Below, in pieces: positions 259 through 26,298 of a DNA stretch of 64,000 nt. The stretch is from contig NC_087082.1 in NCBI RefSeq assembly GCF_026151205.1, positions 5,401,908 through 5,465,907 of the forward strand, written 5' to 3'. The DNA comes from Bolinopsis microptera (taxonomy: Eukaryota > Ctenophora > Tentaculata > Lobata > Bolinopsidae). The notes under the pieces were generated by a model. That model did not search any database and had not been told where the DNA came from. It saw only the letters and a list, made by a program, of their open reading frames with translations. The translations under genes were made by a program, and so were the position numbers. Each line of letters begins with the position of its first letter. Position 1 is the first letter of the stretch.

Positions 259-326
259 ATGGAAAATAACCAAAACTTCTGTCTTCTGCCAACCAAGAAG
301 AAAAAGTTCCGGGTCACTCTGAAGAG
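259..326 (+). CDS. candidate alternative first coding exon (a)
   Basis: An ATG at 259 opens 22 codons (basic tail with a run of four Lys, then FRVTLK) and ends AG followed by a good donor (gtaaga, 327-332). The exon therefore ends in phase 2, the phase accepted by the exons at 4761 and 20388 on the same strand. I read it as one of several alternative starts of the plus-strand gene ending at 22126. Protein function is not recognised. Evidence is ATG, donor and phase only; no promoter element is obvious just upstream. Confidence 0.4.
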
Positions 327-1153
327 GTAAGAATTATCTCTCTGTTCGTGGTTATCTTTCAGGTGATATATTGTTCTGTATAGTCTCGTTATAAACCTTA
401 AATTAGTGTGGTCTCGGAGGTGTTAAAAATAAAAGTTATAAATTATAATAAGAGACGGATACTTTATGCTTGTTATTGCCTGTTTAATAGTTATCAGTTC
501 GGAGCTGGATACAACTTAGCAGATATCGTGTCATATCGGCGCCGTGACACTTTTCTACAAACGTTGTTTTGCTACGGAGATCACAAACTGATTAATCGTA
601 TTGGAGTAGCTTCTTCTCTTCTAATAGTAGCATTTGGGTTGAAGTACCTCTGATATAAATAGCACCTCGACTGTTATCTGTTACAACACTGCTGTGTCAG
701 CTGTTTTTGTTTGTTACGTTTACTAGATCTTACATTATCAGCCAATCAAGTACCTTGGGCACTAGACCAATAAAAAATCTAGTGTTCGATCAACATCAGA
801 ACTAAACAGTTATTGTTGTCAGTTATTGTTGATATCATCTAGTAGTTCAACCTGACCGGGGGGTCAACTTTATTATCTTATTTTAGATGATCACTCTGTT
901 TGTTGATCACCACAGAGCTACTAATACTATTAGAACACTAACACGTATCTGAAGTAGAGCTGATACGTATCACAGCGTGCCAGAGGGACCTCTAAGTAGC
1001 CTTGGTGCAGAGCAAGTACCAACTCAATCAGTTCTGTGACCTGGAGATGTCACCGCTACAGATAAGAGATGTGACCTGGTTGATTTGCCGCTTTATTGGT
1101 TCTGCTTCTTGAGCCTCGTGTGCTTGATTTTGTGTTGTGTTGGTTTGTATTCT

Positions 1154-2230
1154 TAGAGGTCTCAAATCTGTGGTTTTGTAACCGGGAACGTCCTATTTTA
1201 GAGGTCTCAAATCTGTGTTTTTGTAACCGGAACGTCCTATTTTAGAGGTCTCAAATCTGTTGTTTTGTAACCAGGAACGTCCTATTTTAGAGGTCTCAAA
1301 TCTGTGTTTATGTAACCGGGAACGTCCTATTTAGAGGTCTCAAATCTGTAGTTTTGTAACCGAGATCGTCCTATTTAGAGGTCTCAAATCTGTAGTTTTG
1401 TTATCGAGAACGTCCTATTTTAGAGGACAGAGGTCTCAAATCTGTTGTTTTGTAACCGGGAACGTCCTATTTTAGAGGTCTCAAATCTGTTGTTTTGTAA
1501 TCGGGAACGTCCTATTTTAGAGGTCTTAAATCTGTTGTTTTGTAACCGAGATCGTCCTATTTAGAGGTCTCAAATCTGTGTTTTTGTAACCGGAAACGTC
1601 CTATTTTAGAGGTCTCAAATCTGTGTTTTTGTAACCGGGAAAGTCCTATTTAGAGGTCTCAAATCTGTTGTTTTGTAACCGGGAACATCCTATTTTAGAG
1701 GTCTCAAATCTGTTGTTTTGTAACCGGGAACGTCCTATTTTAGAGGTCTCAAATCTGTTGTTTTGTAATCGAGAACGTCCTATTTTAGAGGTCTCAAATC
1801 TGTAGTTTTGTTATCGAGAACGTCCTATTTTAGAGGTCTCAAATCTGTTGTTTTGTAACCGGGAACGTCCTATTTTAGAGGTCTTAAATCTGTTGTTTTG
1901 TAACCGAGATCGTCCTATTTAGAGGTCTCAAATCTGTGTTTTTGTAACCGGAAACGTCCTATTTAGAGGTCTCAAATCTGTGTTTTTGTAACCGGGAAAG
2001 TCCTATTTAGAGGTCTCAAATCTGTTGTTTTGTAACTGGGAACGTCCTATTTTAGAGGTCTCAAATCTGTTGTTTTGTAACCGGGAACGTCCTATTTTAG
2101 AGGTCTCAAATCTGTTGTTTTGTAATCGAGAACGGACTATTTTAGAGGTCTCAAACCTGTTGTTTTGTAACCGAGATCGTCCTATTTAGAGGTCTCAAAT
2201 CTGTGTTTTTGTAACCGAGATCGTCCTATT
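1154..2230. repeat. minisatellite, about 44-46 bp unit, roughly 24 copies
   Basis: Tandem units beginning AGAGGTCTCAAATCTG and ending GTCCTATTT, with short variants (TTTA or TTTTA at the junction; CCGGGAACG, CCGAGATCG or CGAGAACG inside). A block containing the CTTAAATCTG variant followed by the CGAGATCG variant recurs about 360 bp apart (near 1524 and 1883), so the array has a higher-order period of about eight units. It lies in the presumed first intron of the plus-strand gene. Confidence 0.9.
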
Positions 2231-3252
2231 CTATCTGCGTTGCAACAATTACGGCTGGCAGACGGTAACGATTATCACAAAATTCAAAAATCCTTATTTT
2301 GCTCTAACCGAGAGCCATGATTTTAAGATGGCCCGAGTAATTGACTAACTGTAACGGTCTGAACGTTGTGAAGTTTATTGAAGTATTACGGAAATCTGAT
2401 CCGGACTTTACTTTGCATGTGGCTAAAGTAATAGTTTCATCTGATTAGCGCCGCCACTTGCCGTACAATAAGCTTTGTAAACATTTCCTTTACTCCCGAT
2501 CGTCCCTATTCATCCAGTCTTTCTTAGATCCAGCCCTCATTTAATAGTCACTTTAACCGTTCTGAAGGGATGACTGGGATCGTGTTATAGTCTAAATTAT
2601 TTAAGAAACCTTGCAGCAGCTTCTGGTGCTTTAGTTTTATTCATTTGCGAGTAAGCATGATTCTTAATGCAATTGTTACTTTGTTAGCTCCAAAGAAAAC
2701 TTTAAAAGTGAAAACTGATGGATATTGGTAATTCTGCACATGTATGCAATCACTAAATCACGTACAATAAGCTGTATTATATATGATTAATTAAAGTTTG
2801 TTAACATCGATAGGTCATAGCTAATAACCCTCGTGATTAGGGAACCTCCCTATTCGGGATCCAAGTAAGGTATATTACTTCTAGTATACTTTCATGTATA
2901 GCTATAAGCGAGCCAATGACCCTAAATAATTGCAGCATCAGTTAACCACTACGATAGCAACTAATAACATGAGCCTATACTCGATACCGGCTGGGACAAA
3001 AATTTGATTAGCATTTTGTATGGCAAATTTTTCAGTATACACAAATATAAAAAAATTATGATAATGGATATTGAATTTATTAAAATTTGGATTTAAGTTC
3101 AAGAATAAGATAATAGATTAAAAAAATTCCAGATACTTGTTCAGTCTCCGCAAATCATTTCTTTCCTGGCTGTTAAATTGGTCATCACTCCTTGTGGACA
3201 TCTTAACCGGTGCTGCTAATTCGGTTATCAGTAATACATGATCATAGCTGCC
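2231..3252. other. no gene seen
   Basis: A+T-rich single-copy-looking DNA between two minisatellites. No ORF with splice borders and no repeat was recognised. Confidence 0.5.
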
Positions 3253-3390
3253 TTAACATCTGTTACAAGTGTAACCATGGTAACATCTGTTACAAGTGTA
3301 ACCATGGCCATGGTAACATCTGTTACAAGTGTAACCATGGTAACATCTGTTACAAGTGTAACCATGGTAGCATGGATCTGTTACAAGTAA
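3253..3390. repeat. minisatellite, about 25 bp unit, 5 copies
   Basis: Units of ATCTGTTACAAGTGTAACCA followed by TGGTA. Each holds the core GTAACCATGGTAAC seen in several other arrays of this window. The short ORFs on both strands here are repeat translations, not genes. Confidence 0.85.
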
Positions 3391-3898
3391 TGCAGGAAAT
3401 ACCACGTGGTCCGGATACTCTACTAAAATTATAACATTAAACATTTAAACCGTGTCCTGACTAACTCAACTGGCATTCAATAAGAGCCAGAAAACAGATC
3501 GATTCCGACCATTTCCGCTTACTTAGTTTTGTTTATCAGTTTATGTGATCTCTTGAAAGTTTTCTATTTATTTGGGATCACTTTCATAAACTGATCTGGA
3601 TATCAAAGTTTACTTCATCATATTTATGTCTCTATGCTCCTGGTTCAACAATTCCGTCATTCCAATATCTAGATTGTGTTTGTAGATATTAACCATGATT
3701 GCTAATCTGTGATTGTTCATGTGCATTTCTTCATAGTTGGCCGAACTTGCTTGTTTTGCTATGATTGCTTACTAACGTTTCTGATTATTTTCCTTGTCTG
3801 ACGTTAGTCGCCGAACAGGTTCACAGTTTTTAGTTTCATTGTTTTATAGTTGTCTATTGCACTGGACTTAACAACCAACCTAAAACAGAGAGCTGGAA

Positions 3899-3972
3899 AT
3901 GAAGGGGTTCAAGAGAAGACCTCACTTTCTGGGGAACAAGTTCAAATATTACAACTGGATCCACCTAGCAAC
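3899..3972 (+). CDS. candidate alternative first coding exon (b)
   Basis: An ATG at 3899 opens 24 codons of basic and aromatic character (MKGFKRRPHF at the start), ending AC before donor gtaaga. It ends in phase 2, like the exon at 259, and could join the symmetric exon at 4761 or the exon at 20388. A 22-bp minisatellite starts 12 bp after the donor. Function unknown; the call rests on ATG, donor and phase. Confidence 0.4.
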
Positions 3973-3984
3973 GTAAGAACAGTG

Positions 3985-4205
3985 TAACCATGGTAAAATG
4001 GGTTTGTAACCATGGTAGCATGGGTTAGTAACCATGGTAGCATGGGTTTGTAACCATGGTAACATGGGTTAGTAACCATGGTAACATGTGTTAGTAACCA
4101 TGGTAACATGTGTTAGTAACCATGGTAACATGTGTTAGTAACCATGGTAACATGGGTTTGTGACCATGGTAGCATGGGTTTGTAACCATGGTAGCATGGG
4201 TTTGT
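3985..4205. repeat. minisatellite, about 22 bp unit, about 10 copies
   Basis: Units of TAACCATGGTAACATGGGTT with small changes, again built round the palindrome TTACCATGGTAA. Placed just inside the intron following exon (b). Confidence 0.9.
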
Positions 4206-4760
4206 TGTAAGTTGTATTGTCTCAACCTCCTTACAAGCTTTTTACAGTACAATGTTGTTAACACTTAACAGTCTCTAAAAATTAAATGTTCAGATAAAAA
4301 CTTTGCTTTTACGTACATCAGAATCATCGGTAAAATCATTCTGAAAATGTTTTAACTTCAAACTTCATCTTTACAGATGTTTATAGATCGGTCAATCTAT
4401 ATTAATTTTCCATAGCCCTTGAAGTTCTTAAATATTTGTCCGTCAGTGGTTTTATTTCGTATACCTTTTTTTTGTTGGATATTTTAATGGATGTTTAAAA
4501 ACATGCAAAGTTAGACCTGTTTCACAAGAGTATATTAAACACTAATTTCGTGTCGTGACATCAAGGAGTCGTACTCGTACCAATTTGTCCTCCATTAGTC
4601 TGTAATAAATACGAAAGTTGTGGCGTTGTAGCCAAACAGATTGGGGTTGAGTAAGAATACTTTAATAAAGTAAGGAGTGAGGATGTCAGCATTGTGTGTT
4701 ACACTAGCCCCAATGTCAGCACTGTGTGCAGGCCTGGAAGTAAAAGTCAGTCCCCTGCAG
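4206..4760. other. no gene seen
   Basis: A+T-rich stretch up to the acceptor at 4760. It includes a short open frame from an ATG at 4684 that runs through the acceptor region; I prefer the spliced reading because its phase matches the neighbours. Confidence 0.4.
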
Positions 4761-4853
4761 GTGCCACAGATGTGGTCACAGAAGACCAGCCTTCACCAGC
4801 ACTATAGCTTTGCTGGACAGTCTGAACAGCCCCCCCAACGCTAACCTACCTGG
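4761..4853 (+). CDS. candidate internal exon, phase 2 to 2
   Basis: Bordered by acceptor tcccctgcag and donor gtatgt. Read in phase 2 it gives 30 open codons with HRCGHRRPAF and LLDSLNSPPNANLP, and ends GG in phase 2, so it can be included or skipped without changing frame. That suits first exons (a) and (b) upstream and the exon at 20388 downstream. The sequence is Ser/Pro/Arg-rich and not recognised. Confidence 0.4.
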
Positions 4854-5167
4854 GTATGTTCCCTCTGTTATACTTACTTGTTACTCACTATTCTCCGATC
4901 CAGTGTCTCTCATAAACGTCTCTTATCACTCCCGTTATATGTATAATTGTCAAGTTATTTTCCTACTGAAGCAAAATAGTGGGTATCCTAGAAAAGAGCA
5001 CCCTGGAGAAACTATCTGCCCGGGGATTAAACACTTCTTACAAAGTTACAACTCACTTCTTACAAAGTTACAACTCTATTACAGTAAACTGTTAGATCGG
5101 TGTTCTTCATCTCGCTTTTGTCTTTTCTTCACTTACTTTAAAATCTGTGTTAGTGTGTCGGGGAGAC

Positions 5168-5203
5168 TCTCTCTCTCTATCTCTCTCTCTCTCTCTCTCT
5201 CCT
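5168..5203. repeat. (CT)n microsatellite
   Basis: An interrupted run of CT dinucleotides. The 155-residue ORF that crosses it has no splice or homology support. Confidence 0.85.
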
Positions 5204-5844
5204 TTCGGCGGCTTCTTTGTAGGGCGGTGCCGATCATCTTAAAGTCCAAGTTTCTTATTTTATCGTATTCGATTTAAGTTTGTGATAGTATACTATTCAC
5301 ATATTCATATCATATTAAAATTTATCATTATATGCTAATCAAACGTTTAGATAAATATCTCTTCTGCGCGGCTTCTTATCAACTCTTTTCTGATAACTGT
5401 AGAGAGAATTGTTTGATCTCATAATGGGACGAATGATGTCAAATTAACTGATGACTTACACCCAATTTACTAATACAGACCTGCTATCACTCGATCACAG
5501 AAATTGACAGTTTTTCAAAGAAATTGCCGGACTCTCCTGGAATCACTTCGATTATAATATTATAGGATTAACCATGACAACTGTAGGGTGTAACCATGAC
5601 AACTATAACCATGAACCTCGTTGCGGGGGTGTAAAGCAAGTCATCCTGGGTGGTCCTTAAAGAGCAGTTGTAGAGCAGTAGACTCTCCTCTCCTCTCTCC
5701 AGCTCTCTCCAGCTCTTCTCGTGTGTGATCCTCCTAATACAGCAGAATACTCGGACTCCACAGTCCGTGATATATCTGCTGTGGTCGTTATACTTATGTT
5801 GTGCAAGCTGGATTGAAAATTCTCTACACTTTTATTTACATTAC
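5204..5844. other. no gene seen
   Basis: A+T-rich intron-like DNA with two short AACCATGACAACT repeats near 5573-5615 and a CTCTCC-rich patch near 5690-5715. Confidence 0.4.
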
Positions 5845-5950
5845 CAGTGCAGTGATTACAGTGCAGTGATTACAGTGCAGTGATTATAGTGCAGTGATTA
5901 TAGTGCAGTGATTATAGTGCAGTGATTATAGTGCAGTGATTACTGTGCAG
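5845..5950. repeat. minisatellite, 14 bp unit, about 8 copies
   Basis: Tandem AGTGCAGTGATTAC, shifting to AGTGCAGTGATTAT in the later copies. Confidence 0.9.
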
Positions 5951-6173
5951 ATGCTGTGTGCACTGTTGTTGCAGGAGATGACTGTCCACTTTTTTCATGG
6001 TATTAAGTCTCTACGAAGACACAATCATCATGTTTGCCATTCATTTGTTGTGTTTTATTTTAGAGATTCTGTTGATAATCGGTTTTATAAACTTATTAAA
6101 AATAACGAATCTTTCAAAGCGATAATTCCATTAACAATCTGACAATTGTCATGTCTCTTCAAATAATGATAGT

Positions 6174-6245
6174 ACAGTAAAACCCCGATTTATCGCGGCC
6201 ATTACGTTTCCCGCAATCTACACGATAAATTGACGTTAACTGTAG
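6174..6245 (+). mobile_element. solo end of a pogo/Tigger-like DNA transposon
   Basis: TA followed by CAGTAAAACCCCGATTTATC matches the usual look of Tc1/mariner-pogo inverted ends. The partner end was not found nearby, so this is probably a relic. Confidence 0.35.
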
Positions 6246-6714
6246 TATCTGAAATGCAATACAAAAAATGCATAATTTTTACGACAAATCAGCTCTCAAA
6301 TAATTTGTCCCTGTACCGTGACTATTTGTCAGAGAAACAAGATTAAAGCCTATTGGAAAGTTAGAGCATGTAATAAGATATATCTAATTTAGCCTGGAGA
6401 TTAGCCTGGTCAGAGCTGATATTAATATTATGTTGTTTTACGTCACAGAAATATAGAGAGATTAGAGTTGTATGCGAGCACCTATCTTTATGTAGGAGCA
6501 ACTATCTTTATGATTATGAAAATCACATTATGTTTAGATCCTTCTTCCTTGTGCAGTCTGGTTCCTCTATGTTTCTTGCTGACTGAGTTTGTATCTGAGT
6601 TGTAAAAGAGATGGTTGTTCTGTTTTTTGCTGATTTATCATTTAATGCACTGTCATTATCTACATTTAATGTTTCTTTTAATAATCATTTGGTTAAAGTT
6701 GCATTGTCTCGGCT

Positions 6715-7677
6715 CTAGTTCCTCAGCACTTTAATTGTGATGTCTTGGTGGCTTGGCATAACGCCAGACTGCTGTGTCATCGGCAATTCAGCCTTGTCCA
6801 TCTTGCTTTTCATACTGATCCTCATAACGTTCAAATGCTTTTGTACAAACCTTTTGAAGCTCTTGATGGTGAAGTAATAAACGACAGGATTGCACGTGTA
6901 GTTGAGGAAAACGATGAAAGTTGTAAATGTTGTCAGGACTTGTGGGTATTCATTGATAGTGGCTTTTAGAGTCATCTCTACACCATAGGGAAGTAAAGAG
7001 ACCGAGAAAAGGCAGGAAATTGCGATCATTGTCATTACTGCCTGCTTTTGAATTCCACTCACTTTTTTTACAAAGAAGATCATCTTGATGGTTGTGAAAG
7101 TTACAGTTAAAACTGGCAAATATATTGCGAAGCATGCAGCTCCAATAGCTGCCCATCTCGACCACTCTTCAATCTCTCCGCTCTCTACCGATGCTTCACT
7201 GGAAATGCACCTGAACATCATCTTTTGGTAGTACTGTAAACCGCTGTGCATGAAGGGTAAGAACGGCAGAATGGAGACAGCCCAAATACTTCCTGCAATA
7301 ACCTTGCCCGTTCTAGTCGACCTCACCATTGCTCTCAAGGGCCAGATCAGACATGTAAGCTTGCTGAGAGCTAGCCCACACAAGATAAGAGTAGAAACGG
7401 TTGCGGAGTAGAGGGCTACGTAGGGAGACACAACACAGAGGAAATCCCCGTAGACCCACCTATCACAGATGATAGTGAGTATAGTAGGAAGGATGTAGAT
7501 GCAAGTGTAGATCAAATCCGAGGCAGCTAGATGGCAGATGAGACACACTGAGACCTTGTCTAGGGATATAGCTCTGTACTTGAGAGAGGAGATGAGCACT
7601 ACAATGTTCCCCGTCAGAGAGGTGACCCCACAGAGAGTGGTCCAGGTTAGGAGCACTCCTCGTGCTAGCAGGTTCAT
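6715..7677 (-). CDS. class A (rhodopsin-like) G protein-coupled receptor, single exon
   Basis: A 320-residue seven-helix protein on one exon. Family landmarks in order: GN in helix 1 (GNIVVL), LAASD in helix 2, the Cys before helix 3 (DFLC) with a partner in loop 2 (FRC), Trp in helix 4 (SIWAV), Pro in helix 5 (IYLPV), and NPVVYY in helix 7 followed by a basic tail with no clear palmitoylated Cys. The DRY motif at the end of helix 3 reads SKL, and the CWxP of helix 6 is reduced to SLLP, both unusual. It should sit in the plasma membrane; the ligand cannot be told, though the pattern is peptide- or amine-receptor-like. No clear signal peptide, and the extracellular N-terminus is very short. 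It lies antisense inside the long plus-strand gene region. Confidence 0.9.
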   Translation of the reverse strand: MNLLARGVLLTWTTLCGVTSLTGNIVVLISSLKYRAISLDKVSVCLICHLAASDLIYTCIYILPTILTIICDRWVYGDFLCVVSPYVALYSATVSTLILCGLALSKLTCLIWPLRAMVRSTRTGKVIAGSIWAVSILPFLPFMHSGLQYYQKMMFRCISSEASVESGEIEEWSRWAAIGAACFAIYLPVLTVTFTTIKMIFFVKKVSGIQKQAVMTMIAISCLFSVSLLPYGVEMTLKATINEYPQVLTTFTTFIVFLNYTCNPVVYYFTIKSFKRFVQKHLNVMRISMKSKMDKAELPMTQQSGVMPSHQDITIKVLRN

Positions 7678-7759
7678 CTCCTAAGCTGATGGTTTGTGTG
7701 GGGTTAGTGTTGATATGAGGGTTTAGCAGTGTCAGTACCACTTGTCTAGTAATATTTAA

Positions 7760-8720
7760 AGGAAAAAGGGATGTATCAGCACACGACGTAGCTTGGCGAA
7801 CTATAAAAAGGAACCGAACTCAAACCTTAGGACGCTACTAACTAATCAACAAGTGAAGATCACCTGCTGGTACATGCTGCAGATGTTCCCTACCGTGAAT
7901 TAATCATAATAAATTTCCGTTTTTTTTGCTGCTCCGATCAGAATTAAGGTTGGAACTAAAGTAAAAGTAGCATACAGATCTGAATTAATGTTCCGCGTGC
8001 GAAAATAATTACTACAGCTTCAAATTTTTATATAGCAACTAAAATGAGTGCAATATTTACAAAGAAAGACCCTGCGGAGTCCGGACCTCTTGATTGATCT
8101 TTGTTTACAAACCAGAAGACACGGAACTATAGAGATCCAGGCACACACCTCAGAGGGGGCACATAACTTAGGCTCGGAGAATGGTAATCATGTAGTTAGG
8201 AACCCAACCTAGCCCTCATGCAACTGTTTGCTAACTAACAAAGACGTAAATAACCCTCCTAAGATGTAATCAAGAGCCCTCTACTTATTACACAACTCTG
8301 ATTATTTTGCTCCAGGTGACGGATGAAAGATACTTATTTCAATTTTAGTACGTGGTCTTTGAGTTAATTGAGACAGCTGCTGAGCTGCACTCTTTACAGT
8401 GCAGTGACAGCTTAAGGACTCCTATTATAATTTTAGTAGTAGTACTTAGTTTATTTTTCTCCAGTCTCCACAAAGTTACTCAAGAGTCAGCTGCACTCTA
8501 TTATAGAGCTGGTAATTAGTGAGCACCATGTAAAACTGCATACACACTGCTGACATTCTAGTACCACAATGTTGAAATCTTTAACCTAATACTACAGCTG
8601 CAGCGCAGGAGGAATGCGTGACCAAATCTAGACGTCTTGTGACCAGCGCATGACCTTTGCTTGAGAAGCAATCATCCTAATCAGATTGCTGATTTTCTTC
8701 AAGCGCAGTTCTGAGTGTCT
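7760..8720. other. intergenic stretch with one TATA-like site
   Basis: No coding exon recognised. A plus-strand CTATAAAAAGG occurs near 7801-7811 without a recognised first exon behind it. The end of this stretch leads into the CACGTG cluster at 8730. Confidence 0.4.
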
Positions 8721-8729
8721 TTCTGAACG

Positions 8730-8837
8730 CACGTGGGCAGTTCAGAGTGTCTTTCTAAACGCACGTGCGCTTCAGATCTAGCACGTGCACCTCAGATCCA
8801 TCACGTGGTACTGCTGACCACCAGTATAGGTATAAAA
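8730..8837 (+). promoter_or_regulatory. promoter: four CACGTG E-boxes and a TATA box
   Basis: Perfect CACGTG sites at 8730, 8762, 8782 and 8802, the later ones in a repeated CAGATC-spaced context, followed by TATAAAA at 8831-8837. An ATG-bearing exon with a good donor begins at 8998, about 160 bp downstream. CACGTG is the site for bHLH factors such as Myc/Max, USF and CLOCK-type pairs, so regulation by one of these is likely. The link to exon (c) is inferred from spacing. Confidence 0.55.
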
Positions 8838-8997
8838 CAAAATATGACGCAACACGAATTCCATCGCTTGCTGGCTTCATCGCAGGTTCAGTGGCTAAAG
8901 TAACAAGCCATTAAACAGTTTAACTTGGCAGTTGTGAGACTGACTGTATCGTAGTCGTTACACGTTGTAGTCACTAGGTTTTGAGAGATTGGGGAAG

Positions 8998-9071
8998 ATG
9001 AGGGTCATGATGATGTACGACCTTAGTACTGAAGTTCTGAGAGACTTTCCCGGGGATCGTCATTTGAGAAG
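8998..9071 (+). CDS. candidate alternative first coding exon (c)
   Basis: An ATG at 8998 opens 24 codons (MRVMMMYDLSTEVL, then an Arg-rich end) and ends AG before donor gtgaga, in phase 2. It lies about 160 bp downstream of a TATA box with four upstream CACGTG boxes, the best promoter in the window. The phase allows direct splicing to the exon at 20388. Function unknown. Confidence 0.5.
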
Positions 9072-10152
9072 GTGAGAGTCGTGTCTATCAGTGAGTAAAA
9101 GTGCCATAGACATTCTATTCAGGTTTGTCATTGCGATATTGTTTTGTCGTCTAATCTAATAAATAAAACCGCAGTTTAGAATATGTAGAACCGCAGTTTA
9201 GAATCAGTTGGAGTATTATTTTAAATTCCTGTCCTATTGTTTCTTTATTGTGTACTCCTGTCTGATGTCACTATGTCACAAGCAGATTTATGAAGGAGCA
9301 GGATGATTTATGAAGGAGCCACCCTGCTACAGCTCCCTAGCCTAGTTTTTTCTTTTACAATCCTGTTTTTCTTTTCTGCGGATCGCTCCGTGGACAAACA
9401 CTACAATTGTAGTTGTTAGAGACGAGGATAATCAAAGGAGCAGGGCCTATAAGTCTCCGTGGTGGGGCGGATATTGTCAACAATATAAACACACGGACAC
9501 ATTTGTTTATAAACTTCCTTGATGTGTTTACAATTGCAGGTGCCTGGTTGACGATGCATCAGGTCATGCTTGATCTACCTTATAAAGCTATAAATTGGCA
9601 AAAATTCTCAGTGGTCAGCGAAATAATTACAAACTCTCGTATATAAGACGTCTTAATCAGAGTATCGTATTTAAATAACTGCTTTGTATGTTGCTTTAGT
9701 TTCAATTTTGTAAACTATTCCAATCGTGATCTTGTCCCTTACCCATGATCCCCTAAGTTTGAGATGGTTTGTCAGACTCAGGTAAGATGATATCGTGTTC
9801 GTCTCCATGGTTACGGAGTGAGATAGAGAGCCTTGTTTCAGATTACGACACTGATCGTTTCTCAACTTATAGTCATGATAATTTTACTACTAAAATTCAG
9901 GTAGCTCACCGGGGTCCTTTATGATCAGCTTTTCTGGTAGATTAAGTTTGGTGGATGAAATTTAATCGACTGAATTTGTGATTTGGCGATATGAAGCTAA
10001 TTATATTGAAGTCAAACGTTGGTAGCGCTGGTCATTGTTTAAGAAGTATTGGGAATGGATCAGTTAAACGGGAAATGATAGCTGGGTGGCCCGCAGGAGA
10101 TAGCGAACTCTGGTCCGGGACGTGAACAGTGGAGAAGATGTGTGACTGACAG
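9072..10152. other. no gene seen
   Basis: A+T-rich, intron-like. Short open frames here lack splice borders in a shared phase. Confidence 0.4.
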
Positions 10153-10209
10153 GGTAGCCGCCTCCCTTCGCCAAGTCTACAAGATCTACCAGCGACACAA
10201 AGTCAAAAG
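10153..10209 (+). CDS. possible internal exon, phase 2 to 2
   Basis: Eighteen codons (VAASLRQVYKIYQRHKVK) between a weak acceptor (gtgactgacag) and a weak donor (gtacca), entering and leaving in phase 2. The frame stays open upstream to about 10083, so an acceptor at 10096 (ggcccgcag) with a longer exon is also possible. Offered because composition and phase fit the other exons of the plus-strand gene. Confidence 0.25.
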
Positions 10210-10774: not shown

Positions 10775-10940
10775 AAATGAGGTTATAGCTATATTACAAA
10801 TGAGGTTATAGCTATATTGCAAATGAGGTTATAGCTATATTCCAAATGAGGTTATAGCTATATTACAAATGAGGTTATAGCTATATTGCAAATGAGGTTA
10901 TAGCTATATTGCAAATGCGGTTAATAGCTATATTGCATTG
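10775..10940. repeat. minisatellite, 23 bp unit, 7 copies
   Basis: Tandem AAATGAGGTTATAGCTATAT followed by T and two or three bases (TAC, TGC or TCC). Confidence 0.9.
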
Positions 10941-11806: not shown

Positions 11807-12411
11807 GCTAATATCAACAAGACTTGATTATTATTATAAATGACACCAGAAGACTTCTAGTAGAAGCGCGGCCACCAGTCACCACCAGATCAGATACACA
11901 AGCAGTTCCTCACTGTCAACTTCTCCTCTCCTCCTCTCCTCTCCTCTGCTTATATACTGCTCGTTGAAACACTGCTCTACTCGCTAACCACCAGATAAAC
12001 GTGATTAAGTTTAACTTGACACAGTATCTTGACACGCTCTAGTAGCTTGTCTAAAAGAAGCCACTCTGTGGTGAGCTCACTGTCTAGTTTCTCTCTATTT
12101 ACTGTTCAGTTACCTGTTTAGTTACCTGTGTCCCCTCTCAGAGAGGGGGGGGGGGGTGCTGCCAAGTACTGGCGCTACAACGATCTGATACCTGCTTGCT
12201 GTAGTTCACTGCTAGATACAGCTAGCTCCAGATAGGCGTGTGAAGATAGGGCACTTTACCGCTCTATTCCATTAACATGTTACAGTAACGCTCGCCAATC
12301 AGAGGGATGCATGGTAACCACGTGACTAAGTAAGCAAATAAATGGCTTGATCGTCTGGTCTCTTTGACAGTGAGCTACTAACGTGTGTCGCATGTTATAT
12401 CGAGCTGTAAT

Positions 12412-12500
12412 CCAGTGATAAACTTTCACTCTGTTTAATCGAGCAGTGATAAACTTTCACTCTGTTTAATCGAGCAGTGACAAACTTTTACTCTGTTAAA
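12412..12500. repeat. 30-bp direct repeat, 3 copies
   Basis: Three copies of CAGTGATAAACTTTCACTCT plus GTTTAATCGAG. It lies 150-240 bp upstream of candidate first exon (e); a CACGTG site is also present near 12319. A role as promoter elements is possible but unproven. Confidence 0.7.
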
Positions 12501-12648
12501 TTTCCTGCTTCAATTATCTTGCAGTTATCGTACTTTGACTCTACCGATCTTGTTAGTCTAGTCTTCCAGTCTACTCATTCTTATCTGCGGAACAGACCTC
12601 CTCCTTCCCGGAACATAGTCCGTCCCGGAACATAGTCCGTCCCAGAAC

Positions 12649-12788
12649 ATGACAGTGCACCAAAGCAGGACAGGGTACTCGAGCGGGTACTACATCAGGA
12701 ACGCGTGGAATGTTTCCCGGTACCCTAAACCCGCGTGGAGTATGTCTTCTCGTCCACCCTCCTCCACCTCCACCCGATCTAACACCTC
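12649..12788 (+). CDS. candidate alternative first coding exon (e)
   Basis: An ATG at 12649 opens 46 codons: MTVHQSRTGYSSGYYIRN, then WNVSRYPKPAW and a Ser/Thr/Pro-rich end. It ends TC before donor gttagt, again in phase 2, so it can join the exon at 20388. Its length and higher G+C compared with the surroundings make it one of the more convincing first exons. The protein segment looks disordered and is not recognised. Confidence 0.45.
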
Positions 12789-14037
12789 GTTAGTTTCTGT
12801 TATATTTTACTAGTTGACTTCTAATACAACCGGATATTATCCAACAATCAGTACTTCTAATACTAGCTTTAGAAAATGTCTTACGATTACATATTTGCGT
12901 TCGAGTGAGGTTACTAGAAAGTCATATTTCAAATTTGCTTAAATTTTGATTTGCTCTTTCAGAATTAACTCCTTGAGCTCGTGTACGCTAGCACCTTAAT
13001 ATAAAGACCCCCGGTCCCCCCCCCCCCCCCCCCTGCCCCTTTAAGAGGTGTATTTTTAATACGCAATAATATTAAATAAGCCGTACTTGTTTGTTTCCGT
13101 GTCTATTATATTATAGCCTACTTACGTAGGATTGACGACATTGCCGGACATTTCGTTATTTATTTTACATGAAAATAAAATACTGTGGTCTTATTAGAAA
13201 AGGGCATAACAAGCACAATATTCAGTTAATAATAACTCTTTCTAACTGATGCATCAAAACTTAGTTGCATAACTTAAAACTTAGTTGCATAATTTAAAAC
13301 TCTATAAACTTTGCATGGTTATCTTGTTCATTTCTTCTCTCCTCATTTCGTTTAACAATTCCGATCAGTTACATAAAACTTCTTTAAATTCCACATGCAT
13401 GCAACGTAATCCGCCTGACTAGATTACTGGTTTGTTGAATAAATAATTAAGTTTATTCTGTTTAGTAATAGTGGGTGAGAATTGACAATATCAAAAATTC
13501 TCTGCGAATTATGGAAAATCATGCGGATTTTAGTTTCTTTACAATTCAAATTTAACTATCATGCCATCATGGTAAAAATGTTCGATAATTTTGATAAGGA
13601 CTGAAAATCTTCCGTATAACGTTTAAATTCAATCAAAATACAGTTTTCCCTTTATCCAATTCAAATACAGAATTAAAGCTCGGTCCTGAGGGTCACTTTA
13701 TTCACGAGCAAAAGTTCCACTCACAAATCACTTGAAGTATATAATATCCTTATTTTAGTTTATAGAATTCTTCCTTTCTGCTTCGTTTCAAATCCTGATC
13801 ATTGATCTATTCTGATAAGATCCAGATTCATTTCAATTTGGTGTCTGAATATAGATATCTGCTAAAGTACACAATCAAATCATTTCTTTAAAACAGGAGG
13901 GGTCGTTATTTTCAATGGAATCTGATACCAACTTCACAACTTGAGAAAACTATAAATTGACTGTTTCTCCCCGCCCTACATTAATCAACATTATCATGAT
14001 CACAGCTGTCTACCCTGCGCTGGGTCACAAACCTTCC
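12789..14037. other. no gene seen; poly-C tract
   Basis: A+T-rich DNA with a run of about 17 C at 13017-13033. No exon recognised. Ends at the stop codon of the minus-strand FLYWCH gene. Confidence 0.5.
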
Positions 14038-16099
14038 TCATGCTATTGGATTCCTTAACAGAACCTCGGAGAACAACCTCTCGATCTCCGGAGCCCAAGG
14101 TTGAGGAGAGGGAGGGGGTGAGGTGTTCTTATCCACAGCACCAGAGAGAAGAGGCATTAGTTTAGAGAGCTCTTCCACATCCAGGAGACTCAGAAGCTCC
14201 TTCTCCAGAGACGCAAGCATAGCAGCGTTATCATGGTTACCGGGTGTAACGACGTGGTTACCGGGGGTAACGAGCATAGCAGAGAAGGGTTCTAGAGGAA
14301 ACTGGGGCGATATGTCGGGAGAGTTGAGTGGAGGGGTGTGGGGTGCAGGGTGGGGCTGCAGACTGTTGTGGGGGGATACCTGCAGGGGAAGGTGTAGTGA
14401 TGGAGCGGGTTGATTGGTGACCATGGGTAACGACGTGGTTACCGGGGGTAACGACACTTCCGGCTCCACTACCATAGGTTTCATGTCTACAGTGAGTTGG
14501 AACTGAGAGTTGTTGTTAAGATGGGCCAGACTAAAAGTGGGCATTGTTCGTGAGGGTATTCCTATTTCCAGCTGTGATCCACAACTCAGCACTGGAGCAT
14601 GATGTCCCCGCATATCTTGTCTCTGGAGCTTGGGTCTCTGTTGCCTGGGTCTTATCTTCCTTCGCTCTGGTTTGAGTTTTTCTGGGAAGTTCTCTACTAG
14701 CTTCTTAAACAAGTCCTTCTCCGAGACATCCATCTGGTCCTTCTCATGGAGTACACCTAAACGCTTAATGTCTGATATACACGTCCTTATCTGAAATACG
14801 TTCTGTTTTATTCTCTCTAGGCAGGGAAGGAGTTCCTAAATTAAACACTAGGATCTAGAAACAATATCACTACAAACAAGAAGTTCATTTAAAGAGAGTA
14901 TGCCTTGTAATATCTAAGGTATGAACTGTGCTGGAACACTCCCTATTACCTGTATCTCTAATTTGTTTGGAGGATGGTTGTGGCTTTGTCCCACTGAGAT
15001 AATATTCCCATCTTTATCAGTGCTAATCCTTGCTTTGCAAATTATGGGGTTCAGGGTTGTTTTACGACTCATCATGCACCTGCAGAAGTAAAACAGGGAT
15101 AAAAAATTGATTGAATTATTCGATGACATTCTTTTGGTATGCCTAATTTTAAAAAGACCCATACTGAAGAGTACCTTAGTGCAAGAAATATAGGCGGCAA
15201 GAATATAAGGCGCTAGAAATTAAGGCGGCAAGAAATTAAGGCGATATTTTTTTCGGAAAAAATACGATTTTTGATCGCAAATTTGGTTATAGTTTTGGTC
15301 GAAATAGTGTCAATTTTATTCTTTTATCAGTCTATAAAGCATAGAAATCTGTTTAAAAATACGATATATTGGACATTGGTCACATAAAAACTAAATGGTG
15401 CATGCACATTATATTTATAGTGATTGCTGTTCTGTCGTCTAAGTTTATAATTTTAAATTAGGTAGACATCCACTACATCAGCAAACTGCAAGTCAATTGG
15501 TATATTCATAGAGAAGGGAATAACGCTCCTCAAGAAGTTAGTCGACGAAAAGTACAGCTTCGACAAACGTTTGGAGGATGAATCAGCTGATATTATCAAG
15601 AAGCTATTTCCAGACACGACGGAGCAAGATGACGACGACTATCTTGGTTATGGATTGCAGCTGCTGGAGATATATGACTCTGATGAAGAAGGAGAAGACG
15701 AGAATATTAATTGATATATTAATGTATTTAGACTCAAGTTAATTTATTTTAAATATGTATTTCATTGAATTCTAGCAAATAACGAAATCGACATGTAAAT
15801 TTAAAATAATAAAATCACACGAAAATTTCTTATGAAAAAATCGCAAGAAAAAAAATTAAGGCGGTTAGAAATTACGGTGGTCAGATATTAAGGCGGCAAG
15901 AAATTAAGGCGATTTTGTCAGAATCGCCTTAATTTCTTGCCGCCTATATTTCTTGCACTAAGGTAGTTACCAACCTCCAGTAGATAGTGTCGTTCCTGGT
16001 TCTGTCCCGACTGAATCTGTGATCTTTGTAGACTAGATGGACTGAGTCTTTTGTCCGTCCCGATATAAAACTAACCGACATTCTGTTCCTGGGCGGCAT
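14038..16099 (-). CDS. FLYWCH-type zinc finger protein, three exons
   Basis: Exons on the minus strand: 15975-16099, 14950-15079 and 14038-14790; phases match at both joins (AG|G, then phase 0). The first two exons together give one FLYWCH domain: a hydrophobic start (SVSFISG), YKDHRFSRDR, then IYWRC split across the first intron, the second Cys in IICKARIST, and the closing HNHPP. FLYWCH domains bind zinc and DNA and occur in transcription factors and Mutator-like transposases. The third exon gives a basic stretch (KPERRKIRPRQQRPK), a long Pro/Ser-rich region with two PGNH repeats, and an acidic Leu-rich C-terminus (EKELLSLLDVEELSKL), which could be an activation or dimer region. A start at ATG 16099 is assumed; an upstream exon is possible. 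A likely nuclear regulator rather than a transposase, as no catalytic domain follows. Confidence 0.8.
15174..15963 (+). mobile_element. non-autonomous TIR transposon in the FLYWCH intron
   Basis: Both ends read CCTTAGTGCAAGAAATATAG inwards and continue with repeated AATTAAGGCGGCAAG motifs; the flanks show TA on each side, suggesting a TA target duplication. The left end holds two or three subterminal copies and the right end a further inverted set. Inside, plus strand 15498-15713, is an open frame ending in an acidic tail (KKLVDEKYSFDKRL, later EQDDDDYLGYG and SDEEGEDENIN). This may be the tail of a lost transposase or a captured gene piece. It accounts for 790 of the 895 bp of the intron and starts 11 bp past the splice donor. 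Confidence 0.8.
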
Positions 16100-16129
16100 T
16101 AAAATCACAAAACTAATTAACAGAATCAA

Positions 16130-18360
16130 ACAACAGAACTAATTAACGGAACTAGTTGGTGATCTGGTTTTGTTTGTTTCAGAAATGGGTCCTCTACAGG
16201 AAGAGCACAGACAATATACATGCTAATAACTTCTGTAATTATGAACTAAGTTACGATCTAAATAACTAACTGCAGTACTCGCATAATATGCTGACTTCTT
16301 CAAAGGTGCAAACTGAGAAATGCAGGAAAAGGTGAACAGCAAATTGTGTCCACTTCAAGAGCTGTTTCAAGAGCAGTTTCAAGAGTATTTTCAGCCACAA
16401 AATTCATACCACATTCTAATAATCTTCTCAACTAAAAATATCGATGAAATGCTGAGAGAAATAAATAAGGGACTGTTGAGGTGGAATCTCTACTGTATAC
16501 GGTATAGTACTAGTAGAACTACATATAATACACATTTAAAAACTATCGACTGTCTCAAGATCGACTGTTGAGGTCTCCTGTTCAAATTGGAAGGAAACAT
16601 GTGCGTGTAACAAACTAGATATAGTTATAGTAACACGTATAATAGTTACTATAGAAACCTTTACTATAGTTACTCAACTTAGTGAATATGATAACTTACT
16701 AACACACTAGTGCTATTATACTTATACTCTTATAGTAACTCTCTAAGAAAATATTATAATAAAATAAGCAAATATTGTAAGCAATCGTGATATTTAATAC
16801 GCTACTTAAGCAGGAATGATATCACATTTTTTGGATTAATATTTATTGGATTAATACTTAACACAATTTATAACATTATTACACACATTCATACGTAACT
16901 TTATTTATTGTCAAACACTGTAAAAGTAACAGTGGTTTCTACTCGCAACTAGTTAGGAGCATTATTCCGTGTTTGAAACCGTCAGAAAACGAAGCCTTCC
17001 AGAAACAAGAGAGAGCAAACTGTTAAACCTTCAAGTTCATTACATACGTCATGGTAACTTTAGTAACTATAGTAACTATAGTAACGTATATGCGTCATGG
17101 TTACTACTCCTACTGCTACATTATATGAGCAGTTTACTAAGTAGTTTAGTGTTTACTAGTTCCATAAGAATGGACTGTGTGCCGTCAGGGAGTGAATATA
17201 ATTAAGATAATAGGTAGTAAGGTAGTAAGGTAGGTATAATAGGGATATTCTGGTATCTGCCAAGTTCTACAGAATCACTTTTGATCAAAGAGCTGTCCAT
17301 TTTACAAGAATAGAGGAAGTATAATATTTCCGGGGTCGCCAGTTAGTGATGAGTAAGTACGTTAGTAATGACTAAGTAATGAGAATTGAGAGTGGCATTT
17401 CAACCACAACATTTGCTGGTTTTAGTAGCGCTAATTTTAAAGTTTCAGTGAGTTCCTATTCTCACATGACTACTACCACTACCACTACTACTACATGACA
17501 GGACGTATTGTATCGCAGCTGATTGTATGTATTAATAGACTGTAGTGATAGGGAGTAAGTGCATGACCCCCCCTCTATATCTAGGGAGGAGGTTTGTTTT
17601 GGCACGTGTCCAATCTGTTAAAGCTCACGTTTGTGTAACTAATATGAGCCACCAACCTGCCATTACCACATCTATTCAACTTCGAGGTCCACTCCTGGGA
17701 CCGCCTTACGACCCTTGTACATTTAGAGGCTACCAAGAGCACACGTACGTGATGTACAACAAAGTGTAAATGATAATTATCAAAAAGGTTATTTAAAAAC
17801 AGGAAGCCAGGCAACGAGTCAACATTTCAACCGATCAGCCAAGAATTGGCAAACTGAGGAACATTATTCTTAACAATATTGGTAGAGGCTCCTTTCTGTG
17901 CTGATAAAGTTGAAACCTAAGAAGGGAAATGTGATGTGAAATACTGTCTTCAATTCATGTGTACTGTGCGTGCTCAATAAGTCTCACTTTCTCACTTTCT
18001 CTGTAAACTCCAATGCGATTTTGGGAAACCAGTTTGGTGGAAATTCCCCGGTAGTGGAGCCATAATTGAGCTGTATAATTAGTAACGAGACGTACACACT
18101 GATAAGCAGCAAGTATCAAGACTGACCACCTACAAAAACACCTGATAAGCACCGCAAGATAAGAAACACCAGAACACAACACAACACTACACTAGGCAGG
18201 AAACACGCGGGTCCCAGGGAGCAAGTAGGTCGGGAGTAGGGGGAAACAAAGGGGGCTGAAGATCGACAGTGAGAGATACTGTAATCAGATTACCCCCTGA
18301 ACTCGGGCGACACATTCTAGTTCCTGTAACGGAACTCTGTCCGCTATCCCGGGTTAAGTT
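16130..18360. other. no gene established
   Basis: A+T-rich DNA with runs such as ATAGTAACTATAGTAACTAT near 17060. An open frame at 17640-17769 (NMSHQPAITTSIQLRG near its start) looks mildly coding but has no usable splice borders. Confidence 0.4.
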
Positions 18361-18371
18361 ACACGTCCGGT

Positions 18372-18474
18372 CACGTGCTGCCCACGTGCTGCTTGTACGC
18401 GCGCGTCATTGGTCAGCGTTAGGTCACGTGGGCGGCTCCGCGCGCTCTGATTGGTGGGCGTGAGCTGTCACGTG
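18372..18474. promoter_or_regulatory. G+C-rich promoter-like island: four CACGTG and two CCAAT boxes
   Basis: CACGTG at 18372, 18383, 18425 and 18469, with ATTGG (CCAAT reversed) at 18408 and 18450, in a CpG-rich patch with GGGCGG near 18430. A possible first exon follows, ending at CAG before donor gtacct near 18552; its short ATG frame does not fit the next exon, so it would be 5' untranslated with translation starting at ATG 21162. This could be a further promoter of the plus-strand gene, 2 kb before the exon at 20388. Confidence 0.5.
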
Positions 18475-18559
18475 GGGGTCAGGGACTGGGCTGCAGCACC
18501 AGATCCCTGATTGCGGGGTGTAGACCTGTGTATCTGCAGGCTAATGAAGCAGGTACCTT

Positions 18560-20172
18560 AATATCCGGGTTCGGAATGACCCCGGTTAGGTTGGTACACG
18601 CGGTATGATATTCCACTACTCTTCTAATTCATTTTCTACCTTAATTCAGACAGATTAATCTACTCTGTGAAGTTGGACAAGTGCCTGACATATTCAGGAA
18701 GTTATGCAACCTCGAAATCTGGTTCATGAATATGATAATCTAGATGTGAAAACGGTCGGAGAAACTTAAAATCTGGACAATTTCCGCTTGTTTTTAGGAC
18801 ACGCACTGTCTGTGAAAAGATACTAATATACTGTCACTAATATCCATTATCCTGTTACTAATATATTGTTGAAATCAAGCAGGATCAAGCAGCTTGTCTC
18901 ATAATATCGTATAATATTATATTGGATACAACTGCGATATTGAAGTTGAACAGAAAGAAGAATAGTGAATAGTAATCTCATATATTTTGTCATCGCATTG
19001 TCTAGTTTGCTGAACATTAATCGAGCTGTGAACACCAAACATACTCCAATCTGCTCAGGTAATCTTTCTCTGTTATCGAGAGAAAAAATTGCACGAAAAT
19101 CTTTGAAAAACTGCTAAAATCAGTTATTTTAGAATCTTTAATTTAATTTACAGACGCATTTTTTCCAGGATTGTATGAGTTTCAAGGATGTTGGTTTTAC
19201 TAATATCATTTTTTGAATCAACTGCCACTTTTATGCGGAGAAGTCAATGATAATTATGCCTAGAAAATTATCGTCTAAAATAGCTGCTATTTCTGTTCCA
19301 GAATTTTTGACAGATGTCAGAAATTTGACAAAAATAGGATTAGGTAAAAATAGAAAAATGAGAAAACCATAATAATAAAAAATACCAAAACTTTCAAATG
19401 GCTGTGGAAGGTGGTTAGGCGGTTGTTAGGCGGTTGTTAGGTGGCTGGTGCCTAACTCAAATTCGATTTCTTTCCCTTTTGAACACCATATCTCTCCATC
19501 ATCGTATAACCCATTTTGCTTCGAAATATTAAACGGGTTTATGGCCACTAATTATTTATTAGTAAGTATACCAATTACTATTACTAACCAATTAACTTAA
19601 TTAATCGCAATATTGAACGACACGACACACAACGCCTAACTGCGGATAGAATATCGTAGGAAGATGTGAGTTACACTGTAGTAGGTAGTTCTATTACCTG
19701 CTAGTAGTCGTATTAACTATCAGTACAGTACTAGGTAGTGTGTAGTAAATAGTACTGCTAGAGTTATTAACTAGTAAATAGTACTGCTTTCAGTCGTTCT
19801 TACATTCCCAGCTATAGCTTCTGCAGTAGGTACTATAAATAATAATAGTATATACTGTAGCAGTACTAGTATATTATATACGGTTGTCGGTTAGTAGCAC
19901 TAACTTGTTCTCTGAGGAGGACGTATTGTTAATGTTATTGTTTCACCTGTTATAATATACTGTTATATACTGTGAAACACAGAAGTCAGAATACAATCCC
20001 ACTCGCATATTTCTGTTCTTAAGGAAACTAATTAAACTATCCTGGCGTGGTTTCTAATGGCAGTTTTTTATTAAATTAATATGTGACACAAATTTAAAGA
20101 AATTTATCAATCTTAAGATTCTACACTCGTTTATCTGCGGCTGAATACCATCATTACTGACCCTAATTCAAA
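18560..20172. other. no gene seen
   Basis: A+T-rich intron-like DNA. Short direct repeats (GGTGGTTAGGCGGTTGTTAG) near 19410-19445; otherwise featureless. Confidence 0.4.
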
Positions 20173-20245
20173 CCAGTGGTGTAACGAAGGCCCGCGCTGT
20201 GCGGGGGGGGGCGCAATCTTAGGGGGGCGCCAATCGTAGTTTGAA
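20173..20245 (+). mobile_element. left end of a hAT-like element (CAGTGGTGTAACG)
   Basis: Begins CAGTGGTGTAACGAAGGCCC and continues into a G-rich stretch matching the inverted right end of the complete copy at 31575-31856. Its own right end was not found, so it is a fragment. Confidence 0.5.
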
Positions 20246-20387
20246 TATGGGACAATTTCAAAAAACTGTCACAGAAATCATTTTATAAGTTTAATCTTTT
20301 AATAGATTGCAGTACCAGGAGGTGACTGTGCTGTTTCTTAAATTTTGTAACATTTTGTAACATTTTGTAACATTTCCCTTATTTCAG

Positions 20388-22126
20388 GACCACAGACCAC
20401 TACTCACACTGGTGCGACAGTAAATCCTGCTCAAGTCGGATTAGTTCTGGAAATCTAAAGGGTAACTTACTTTTTCCTTGAGTTTCAGCTAGAATATCGT
20501 AACCAGGGATTGTAACGTTAATATTAACAACTAGTAAAGTAGTTTGATAAACACTAGCTTCCTGAGGCTGAACCTTATATACTTATACTAAGTTGAAATA
20601 TCATTATGTCAAGGACAACGGTTAGCGAACGAGGTTTTTTTTCTCGTATACGGTACTGGTAGCTGCGACCGTACGTGCCCACGCGCCAATCTTACTATAT
20701 ATAAAGCGAGACGATATATATATATATATATATATCTGTGCCATTTTACTGACACCACGGCATCAACTTTAACGCGACTTTCTGCAAAGACCGTAAAAGA
20801 TATACAACTGAAACTTTTTTGACTGGGTCAAATGCTTTAATGGCCTACAAATCAGCATGAAAAAATAAAAAATTGGCTAAGGAATAATGATTTTAGAGCC
20901 CAAAATTTGGACCCCCAAGTGGTGTCAAAAACGCCAATTAAATAGGTAATAATTATTTTAGTCTCTTGAGTCTTGACACCGTTTAGGGTTATATTATACG
21001 GGTTCCTGCTAGTATATATAGACTGCGCAAAGTTATTTTGCGTGATATTCTGAAATAAACAATTTTTGGCGCGCGTCACTATTAATTAAAAGAGCGGAGA
21101 GTAAAACTTAACAATAATTAATATTATTAATATTTGCTTAATTATCTCGATTTCAGATAATATGTTGGGTAACATAGATGTACCTAATTTGTACACCACT
21201 GTTACTCCTAAATCCTTCCTTCCTCCCTCTCCTCTCCGATCGAAACAGTTTGTTATGCCTCTCAAGCTGCACCAGGTTGGTTTTCAGTGTTTTAATCTAT
21301 TTTATTATCTTGGAGATGAGTTAACTACCTCCATCCTTGCTTTTATTGAGTTAGAGGATCGATTTGATTGAATATAATTTCAATTAACTGAAGAGATCAA
21401 CAACTGTACCGATCTTGTTTTTTGTGAAGATCTATGTGTAATATTTTGCTCGGACATTGAAGCCGCCCTAATTCAGTATACATGTAATATGAAAATTAGA
21501 TGAATTAGATAAGATCAGCTGATAACACAGTCCTTCAGCTGGAACCCCAACAGAAGAAGCCACCAGCCACCAGCTCTGATTTGACTGTGACGTTTGTTCA
21601 CCGCAAGATGAGTGACTCTAGTGGTAATGGCAAGCTGTCCTGCAACAGAAACGGGTAAGATGCCTCGCAGTAGCCTTATTTAATGTCCATGGTTAAATTA
21701 AGGCTAAGCAGCAAAACTACCAATAGTTACCATAGTTATACTACTAGTTACCATAGTTATACTATTAGTTACCATAGTTATACTACTAGTTACCATAGTT
21801 ACACCTAATGTGGTTATTATCCACTGCATCTGTCAGTTTAGCTGGAGTCTAATTATATCAGTCACATATTTGCAACATTAAGCACATAAAAATAACCCCC
21901 TACACCTCCCAGAGCGACCTCTAAACAAAGCAAGAACTCAGCCAACTCCTCCAAACAGACGAGCAAACAACCGGACCCAACCCCCTCACAACCAGGCTAC
22001 CCGGACCCTCTAGACCACGCTCCTATCGCGTTTATCAACAGACTTGCTGAGATGACCAGCCACCAGGCGGACACTGTCCGGTTCGAGCGGAATAAACGCG
22101 GCAAAACGAGAACTAGGATTAGTTGA
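20388..22126 (+). CDS. unknown protein, last four exons of the multi-start plus-strand gene
   Basis: Four exons join without a frame break: 20388-20461 (enters phase 2, leaves 1), 21157-21275 (1 to 0), 21539-21654 (0 to 2) and 21913-22126 (2 to the TGA at 22124). All four acceptors are good (ttatttcag, gatttcag, tccttcag, cacctcccag); donors are gtaact, gttggt and gtaaga. The 172-residue tail runs: TTDHYSHWCDSKSC, NMLGNIDVPNLY, a Ser/Pro-rich part (KSFLPPSPLRSKQF), LTVTFVHRKMSDSSG, a Lys/Ser/Gln-rich linker, then AFINRLAEMTSHQADTVRF and a basic end (RNKRGKTRTRIS). It looks mostly disordered with one short helical piece. I do not recognise the family. Upstream phase-2 exons at 259, 3899, 8998 and 12649 are candidate starts. 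Confidence 0.7.
20713..20736. repeat. (AT)n microsatellite
   Basis: An uninterrupted AT run in the intron between the exons at 20388 and 21157. Confidence 0.9.
21720..21808. repeat. minisatellite, 21 bp unit, 4 copies
   Basis: Tandem AGTTACCATAGTTATACTAC with one further base per unit; the same theme recurs inside the sulfotransferase intron at 24940. Confidence 0.9.
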
Positions 22127-26265: not shown

Positions 26266-26298
26266 CTGTAACGTGACAAGATCAATTTGAGGTGTTTT

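Follow-up and report, generated by a model that had tools for sequence, protein, structure and literature searches.

Alternative first exons are widespread. Mouse Rbfox1 has alternative first exons that lie far apart and have separate promoters, with functional E-boxes in two, and new first exons that are expected to give variants have also been reported (PMC7214753). Genes nested within introns are likewise widespread among animals; a survey covers Hormiphora californensis and 1058 eukaryote genomes and gives 2357 nested intronic genes in 1654 hosts for Hormiphora californensis (PMC8527503). The window analyzed here is a stretch of 64,000 nucleotides (contig NC_087082.1, positions 5,401,908 to 5,465,907 of the forward strand). 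We interpret its left-hand part, with moderate confidence, as a plus-strand gene of about 22 kb that would have several promoters, alternative first exons, a common tail and antisense genes in its introns. As in Rbfox1, distant first exons would be spliced to common downstream exons, and E-boxes are also present upstream of one of the first exons (exon C, below); however, the Rbfox1 promoters are reported to drive isoforms with identical protein (PMC7214753), whereas here each first exon would bring its own start codon and N-terminus. As in the surveyed nested intronic genes, whole genes on the opposite strand would lie within host introns, but here the nesting depends on predicted long introns (PMC8527503).

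The candidate gene is built from the following exons, with positions counted from the first letter of the window:

259..326, plus strand: alternative first coding exon A, 68 nt, 22 codons and 2 nt, MENNQNFCLLPTKKKKFRVTLK.., donor GAG/GTAAGA with a score of 10.4
3899..3972, plus strand: alternative first coding exon B, 74 nt, 24 codons and 2 nt, MKGFKRRPHFLGNKFKYYNWIHLA.., donor AAC/GTAAGA with a score of 6.2
8998..9071, plus strand: alternative first coding exon C, 74 nt, 24 codons and 2 nt, MRVMMMYDLSTEVLRDFPGDRHLR.., donor AAG/GTGAGA with a score of 10.7
20388..20461, plus strand: common exon T1, 74 nt, phase-2 entry and phase-1 exit, acceptor score 11.1
21157..21275, plus strand: common exon T2, containing an alternative internal start ATG at 21162
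21539..21654, plus strand: common exon T3, open frame with a fair coding score
21913..22126, plus strand: terminal exon T4, TGA stop at 22126, C-terminal stretch weakly DUF5537-like

Donors and acceptors were scored with matrices written for a generic animal consensus, and coding potential was scored with a codon model derived from 1304 codons of four genes of the window. Splice scores were calibrated on eight donors and eight acceptors in the sulfotransferase and FLYWCH genes described below, the exon ends of which were placed by eye; these donors scored 3.7-9.8 and the acceptors 1.2-10.3. Open frames, phases, splice-site scores, codon bias and the identities of the nested genes were read directly from the DNA. 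An earlier sequence-only reading of this stretch had proposed ATG-opened exons at 259-326, 3899-3972 and 8998-9071, each leading to a phase-2 donor, and frames, donors and codon scores all agree with that proposal: exons A, B and C open with an ATG, are free of stops and end in phase 2. The codon score of A in this frame is higher than that of 95.8% of same-length stop-free windows on that strand (top 4.2%), those of B and C are each higher than 98.7% (top 1.3%), and in all three exons the score exceeds that of both other frames. The donors of A and C score above all eight donors of the neighboring genes, and that of B is within their range. The ATG of exon A has G at -3 and G at +4 and is preceded by 146 nt free of ATG; 138 nt upstream of the ATG of exon B are likewise ATG-free. 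The predicted N-termini of A and B are rich in Lys and Arg. Since exon A begins at 259, further first exons may lie beyond the left end of the window.

In positions 1-23000 the plus strand has four acceptors with a score of 9.5 or more; that of T1 is the strongest of them, and it exceeds all eight calibration acceptors. T1 opens in phase 2, the phase in which A, B, C and a fourth candidate, re-drawn below as exon D, end. In favor of the model, these four exons are also similar in length (A 68, B 74, C 74 and D 71 nt). The claim that the exon at 20388 is entered in phase 2 and that the tail continues unbroken to a stop at 22126 held; the tail has four exons and ends in TGA, and with any one of the four first exons of the sequence-only reading placed in front, it gives a single open frame of 196-220 residues. 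A phase-2 first exon joined straight to T2 meets a TAA stop immediately, so T1 would be required if the upstream exons are used. The coding scores of T2 and T3 fall in the top 4.8% and 3.6% of windows, respectively.

First-exon candidates on the plus strand of positions 1-20387 were counted and compared with 300 dinucleotide shuffles. Repeats and minus-strand genes were masked before shuffling, which retained 15,777 of the 20,387 bases, and candidates touching the mask, such as a phase-0 pair within the repeat at 3238, were removed before counting. With a donor score of at least 5.5 and a coding score of at least 3, only exons A, B and C were found, all of them in phase 2; under these cuts the shuffles gave a mean of 0.19 phase-2 candidates and a maximum of 2, and three were reached in 0 of 300. 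At looser cuts (donor at least 4, coding at least 2) there were five candidates, four of them in phase 2, where the shuffles had a phase-2 mean of 0.62 and a maximum of 3, with four reached in 0 of 300. Only A, B and C had both a leader of 130 nt or more that is free of ATG and scores of at least 6 (donor) and 3 (coding), and 0 of 300 shuffles equaled this. On the minus strand of the same stretch there were no candidates at the strict cuts, two just under them (donor 5.4 with coding 3.2, and donor 8.3 with coding 2.3) and two at the looser cuts, one of which was in phase 2. Antisense ATG-to-donor candidates at 6740-7645 and 14040-14491 were rejected, as they mirror minus-strand coding exons. 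An open reading frame (ORF) of 41 codons at 17644-17766 on the plus strand contains a phase-2 donor scoring 5.9 and has a CACGTG 41 bp upstream; it was left out as a further first exon of the same gene, its coding score being below the cut of 2.

Exons A, B and C with the tail are a reasonably supported gene model, in which the splicing is predicted. Separate promoters upstream of A, B and C, and perhaps also of D, would each start their own RNA, and each RNA would bring its own start codon and an N-terminus of 22-24 residues. Removal of the long intron would join the phase-2 donor to the acceptor of T1 at 20388, likewise in phase 2, with the 74-nt T1 acting as a phase adaptor between the first exons and T2, and the common tail of about 173 residues (T1-T4) would then be read. 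The intron spliced out would hold one or both of two antisense genes, that of a rhodopsin-type receptor and that of a FLYWCH protein. The differing N-termini would alter the localization or the partners of the tail, and they probably affect the site or the timing of action of a tail protein that would be basic and mostly disordered; promoter use, splicing, the disorder of the tail and the function of the protein are what we infer from the features above. The earlier proposal, in which several promoters feed one common tail and give it varied N-termini, is still the best reading and is partly supported: three of its four first exons passed the unbiased scan, while the donor of the fourth had been misplaced and one of its symmetric exons was unsupported.

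Several observations weigh against this multi-promoter gene. The cut-offs were chosen after the data had been inspected. When phase is disregarded, the shuffles give a mean of 0.53 candidates at the strict cuts and 2% of them reach three, and at the looser cuts 7% reach five. The fifth plus-strand candidate, 4713-4760, is in phase 0 and its donor, at 5.3, is just 0.2 below the strict cut. Bare ATG-to-donor candidates with a donor of at least 6 number 4 against a shuffle mean of 8.6, and are therefore not raised. Derivation of the first exons from one another was rejected, and on sequence comparison they are not recent duplicates, because no similarity was detectable among them in DNA or in peptide (six pairs each). 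T1 has a coding score of -0.9, and 17% of windows score as high; the same fraction scores as high as T4, in which another frame is higher (7.1 vs 5.8). Two candidate terminal exons upstream of the tail, at 12110-12188 and 12142-12235, also offer phase-2 entry. Lastly, the ATG at 21162 in T2 could be the only real start.

In a rival arrangement there is only a short gene, which has a proximal promoter and a non-coding first part and is translated from 21162; the ATG exons farther upstream would be due to chance or belong to unrelated transcripts. We regard this as unlikely. The promoter could be, for example, a stretch within 18.37-18.47 kb:

18372..18474, no strand assigned: promoter-like and GC-rich, containing CACGTG four times and ATTGG (inverted CCAAT) twice

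The G+C content is 0.61 over 18350-18560. T1 has no ATG, so a transcript from here would start translation at 21162, and the weak coding score of T1 also speaks for this arrangement. However, the promoter-like stretch may be that of the FLYWCH gene on the other strand; it could drive either this gene or transcription of the tail from nearby. Moreover, the context of the ATG at 21162 is middling (a purine at -3, T at +4), and a short gene would leave unexplained both the three coding-like phase-2 first exons and the fact that the open frame of T1 is precisely the one leading from phase 2 into T2.

The upstream first exons might instead be real but belong to two or more plus-strand transcripts with terminal exons of their own, so that some or none of them feed the tail. 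This is rather improbable in our estimation. It gains from the good splice sites of one internal exon:

4761..4853, plus strand: possible symmetric (2-2) cassette exon, acceptor 8.7, donor 6.1

In the unmasked sequence, this is the only internal exon with an acceptor of at least 8, a donor of at least 6 and a coding score of at least 3; a 2-2 exon as good was found in 0 of 200 shuffles, and one of any phase in 1%. With an acceptor of at least 5, a donor of at least 4, phase-2 entry and a non-negative coding score, the only internal candidates, antisense ones aside, are 4761-4853 and 4800-4853, which share a donor. The coding score of 4761-4853 is about equal in the other frames and so is not frame-specific; for this reason base composition may account for part of it. 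Of the two 2-2 exons in the sequence-only reading, this one is plausible, while 10153-10209, with a negative coding score (-0.8), an acceptor of 5.3 and a donor of 4.3, was indistinguishable from background and was rejected as noise.

Terminal exons were sought on the plus strand with an acceptor of at least 5, at least 25 codons and a coding score of at least 2. Besides T4 and antisense mirrors, the scan gave 4732-4844, 4761-4844, 5703-5816, 5713-5816, 8978-9075, 12110-12188, 12142-12235 and 12646-12728. Only 12110-12188 (acceptor 6.1, 25 codons, coding 7.9) and 12142-12235 (acceptor 8.3, 30 codons, coding 5.6) are entered in phase 2 and could therefore end transcripts from the proposed first exons. 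Both are poor candidates, however: they are short, overlap in different frames and extend through a run of G at about 12146-12157 that inflates codon scores. The candidate at 5703-5816 has an acceptor of 10.8, 37 codons and a coding score of 3.4, but its entry is in phase 0 and it does not accept phase 2.

Under the multi-promoter gene, promoter-like sequence would be expected upstream of the first exons. Signs of a promoter of its own, in the form of TATAAA and an E-box cluster, were found upstream of exon C only:

8730..8836, plus strand: promoter-like stretch ahead of exon C, E-box cluster (CACGTG four times) and then TATAAAAC at 8831

These E-boxes span 8730-8802, and some of them are copies within 32-bp and 20-bp tandem duplications. 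In the window as a whole CACGTG occurs 22 times, against about 8 expected from base composition. The TATAAA at 8831 is weak evidence, since there are 22 copies in the first 23 kb; B and D have none in the 400 bp that precede them, and there is none in the 258 bases before A. The G+C content is raised near A, C and D, and near B it is not.

The first exons could also mark sites at which a spliced leader is added, if the animal is a ctenophore; they would then be leader acceptors and not promoter-proximal exons. We consider such trans-splicing very improbable here. In the nested-gene survey, trans-spliced leaders and nested genes are both reported as common in Hormiphora californensis (PMC8527503), and the leader of this ctenophore was sought because the animal combines the two. 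A 26-base part of it gave no match in the window with up to three mismatches, in a search that used the leader of this one species. Its core, AATTTGAGGTA, has 5 matches, which is not clearly above chance, as 15 of 100 shuffles reach 5. Two of the ATGs do have a moderate acceptor-like site shortly before them, that of C at 8978 (5.4) and that of D at 12646 (6.1), but no plus-strand acceptor of at least 9.5 is near A, B or C, and the TATAAA and E-boxes upstream of C would suit a promoter.

A fourth first exon at 12649-12788, with a phase-2 donor, had been part of the sequence-only reading. The ATG at 12649 does open a stop-free exon, but the donor at 12788 (CTC/GTTAGT) scores 1.5, below all eight placed donors, and was rejected. 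The donor at 12719 is better, is also in phase 2 and has a score inside the calibration range, and the exon was re-drawn to end there:

12649..12719, plus strand: candidate first exon D, donor corrected, 71 nt, 23 codons and 2 nt, donor CCG/GTACCC with a score of 4.1, coding score +2.7

Eight of the 13 GTs listed in this stretch are in phase 2, so that phase tells little in favor of D, and over 12649-12788 another frame codes better (9.7 vs 3.8); for these two reasons exon D is doubtful. Its ATG lies where a 17-bp tandem repeat ends, and the acceptor-like site noted above lies 3 bases upstream of that ATG.

Two minus-strand genes are situated between the proposed exons:

6715..7680, minus strand: single-exon rhodopsin-family receptor gene, inside the predicted introns that join A or B to the tail
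14038..16099, minus strand: three-exon FLYWCH zinc-finger gene, inside the predicted introns that join any of A-D to the tail

The receptor ORF matches Pfam 7tm_1 (E 1.7e-22). Among the best 60 of 159 matches to solved structures, the top ones are peptide and amine receptors, with the pyroglutamylated RF-amide peptide receptor in first place (E 9.8e-13). The FLYWCH gene has a spliced frame that is open from ATG to stop and matches Pfam FLYWCH (E 6.5e-14). Both coding sequences are complete. That these two genes are real, as the sequence-only reading had it, is borne out by the Pfam matches; that they are nested in introns rests on host introns that are predicted. The first intron of the FLYWCH gene contains a terminal-inverted-repeat element (15172-15965) with 41-nt arms that are 95% complementary. 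Within the element is a coding-like ORF (segment 15511-15639, continuing to a stop near 15713) that gave no Pfam match.

The tail, inspected by eye, is rich in Ser, Lys, Thr and Pro. The sequence-only reading had not recognized the protein and had suggested a protein search of the tail. A search of the Protein Data Bank with the tail sequence gave no matches. The last exon does have a sub-threshold match: T4 alone aligned with DUF5537 (PF17690) at E 0.00061 and 19.9 bits, under the gathering cutoff of 28.4. The match covers 37 residues, corresponds to positions 115-151 of the 160 positions of the family and ends six residues before the C-terminus of the tail. The aligned stretch is therefore near the C-terminus in both DUF5537 and the tail protein, but the rest of the tail protein is unaligned and the score is under the cutoff. 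In the four longer forms the DUF5537 score was 16.8-17.6 bits, again below 28.4. FAM217 (PF15344) reached E 0.15 or worse in these forms (8.2-12.4 bits, short of its cutoff of 27), and the Pfam search of T4 alone reported no FAM217 match. A single-sequence AlphaFold2 model of T4 has a short helix followed by a C-terminal beta hairpin, which, made without an alignment, is only a hint; over the final two ten-residue blocks the mean predicted local distance difference test scores are 88 and 95, and the predicted template modeling score is 0.26. Scans for relatives in viral contigs (44 pattern matches) and prokaryote genome contigs (62 pattern matches) confirmed none, as expected of collections without animals. 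There were no Rfam matches and no tRNAs. In the literature searched DUF5537 was named nowhere, and nothing relevant turned up among the papers listed for FAM217.

A more specific form of the multi-promoter gene can be outlined, although we regard it as a long shot. The locus would encode a compact, unclassified protein with a DUF5537-like C-terminus and at least four unrelated N-termini of 22-24 residues, from promoters spread over 12 kb. Skipping of T1 would put the reading out of frame, so that only these proteins or none would be made, and the nested genes would share regulation with the host gene through the E-box clusters.

The locus is probably a new example of a common gene architecture, and the finding by itself overturns nothing. 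If confirmed, it would be a further instance of an N-terminus determined by the choice of promoter, in an apparently uncharacterized gene family. Short first exons 8-20 kb upstream, across antisense genes, are easily missed, and the locus would therefore be useful as a test of long-read annotation.

Elsewhere in the window, a sulfotransferase gene of about seven exons lies on the minus strand at 23300-26270 (Pfam Sulfotransfer_1, E 1.3e-50, exons joined by eye). Exons of an aspartate/ornithine carbamoyltransferase-like gene occupy 47580-49135 on the same strand (Pfam OTCace_N, E 2.9e-38). Judged against the sequence expected of a carbamoyltransferase, this gene is interrupted by two in-frame stops (47580-47760) and, apparently, by a change of frame (47920-48090); they suggest either a pseudogene or poor assembly at that place. 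A further minus-strand gene at 59030-60420 has a von Willebrand A domain (E 3.3e-24), which is followed by what we take to be a scavenger-receptor cysteine-rich domain. The plus-strand ORF of 282 codons at 27133-27981 lies in a minisatellite, repeating NSSTLSLVVCHWCVT, and is very likely not a gene. Finally, a stretch of about 140 bases occurs as an inverted pair at 29545-29690 and 29895-30045, with a third, diverged copy at 36905-37080; read by eye, it is apparently a dispersed repeat.

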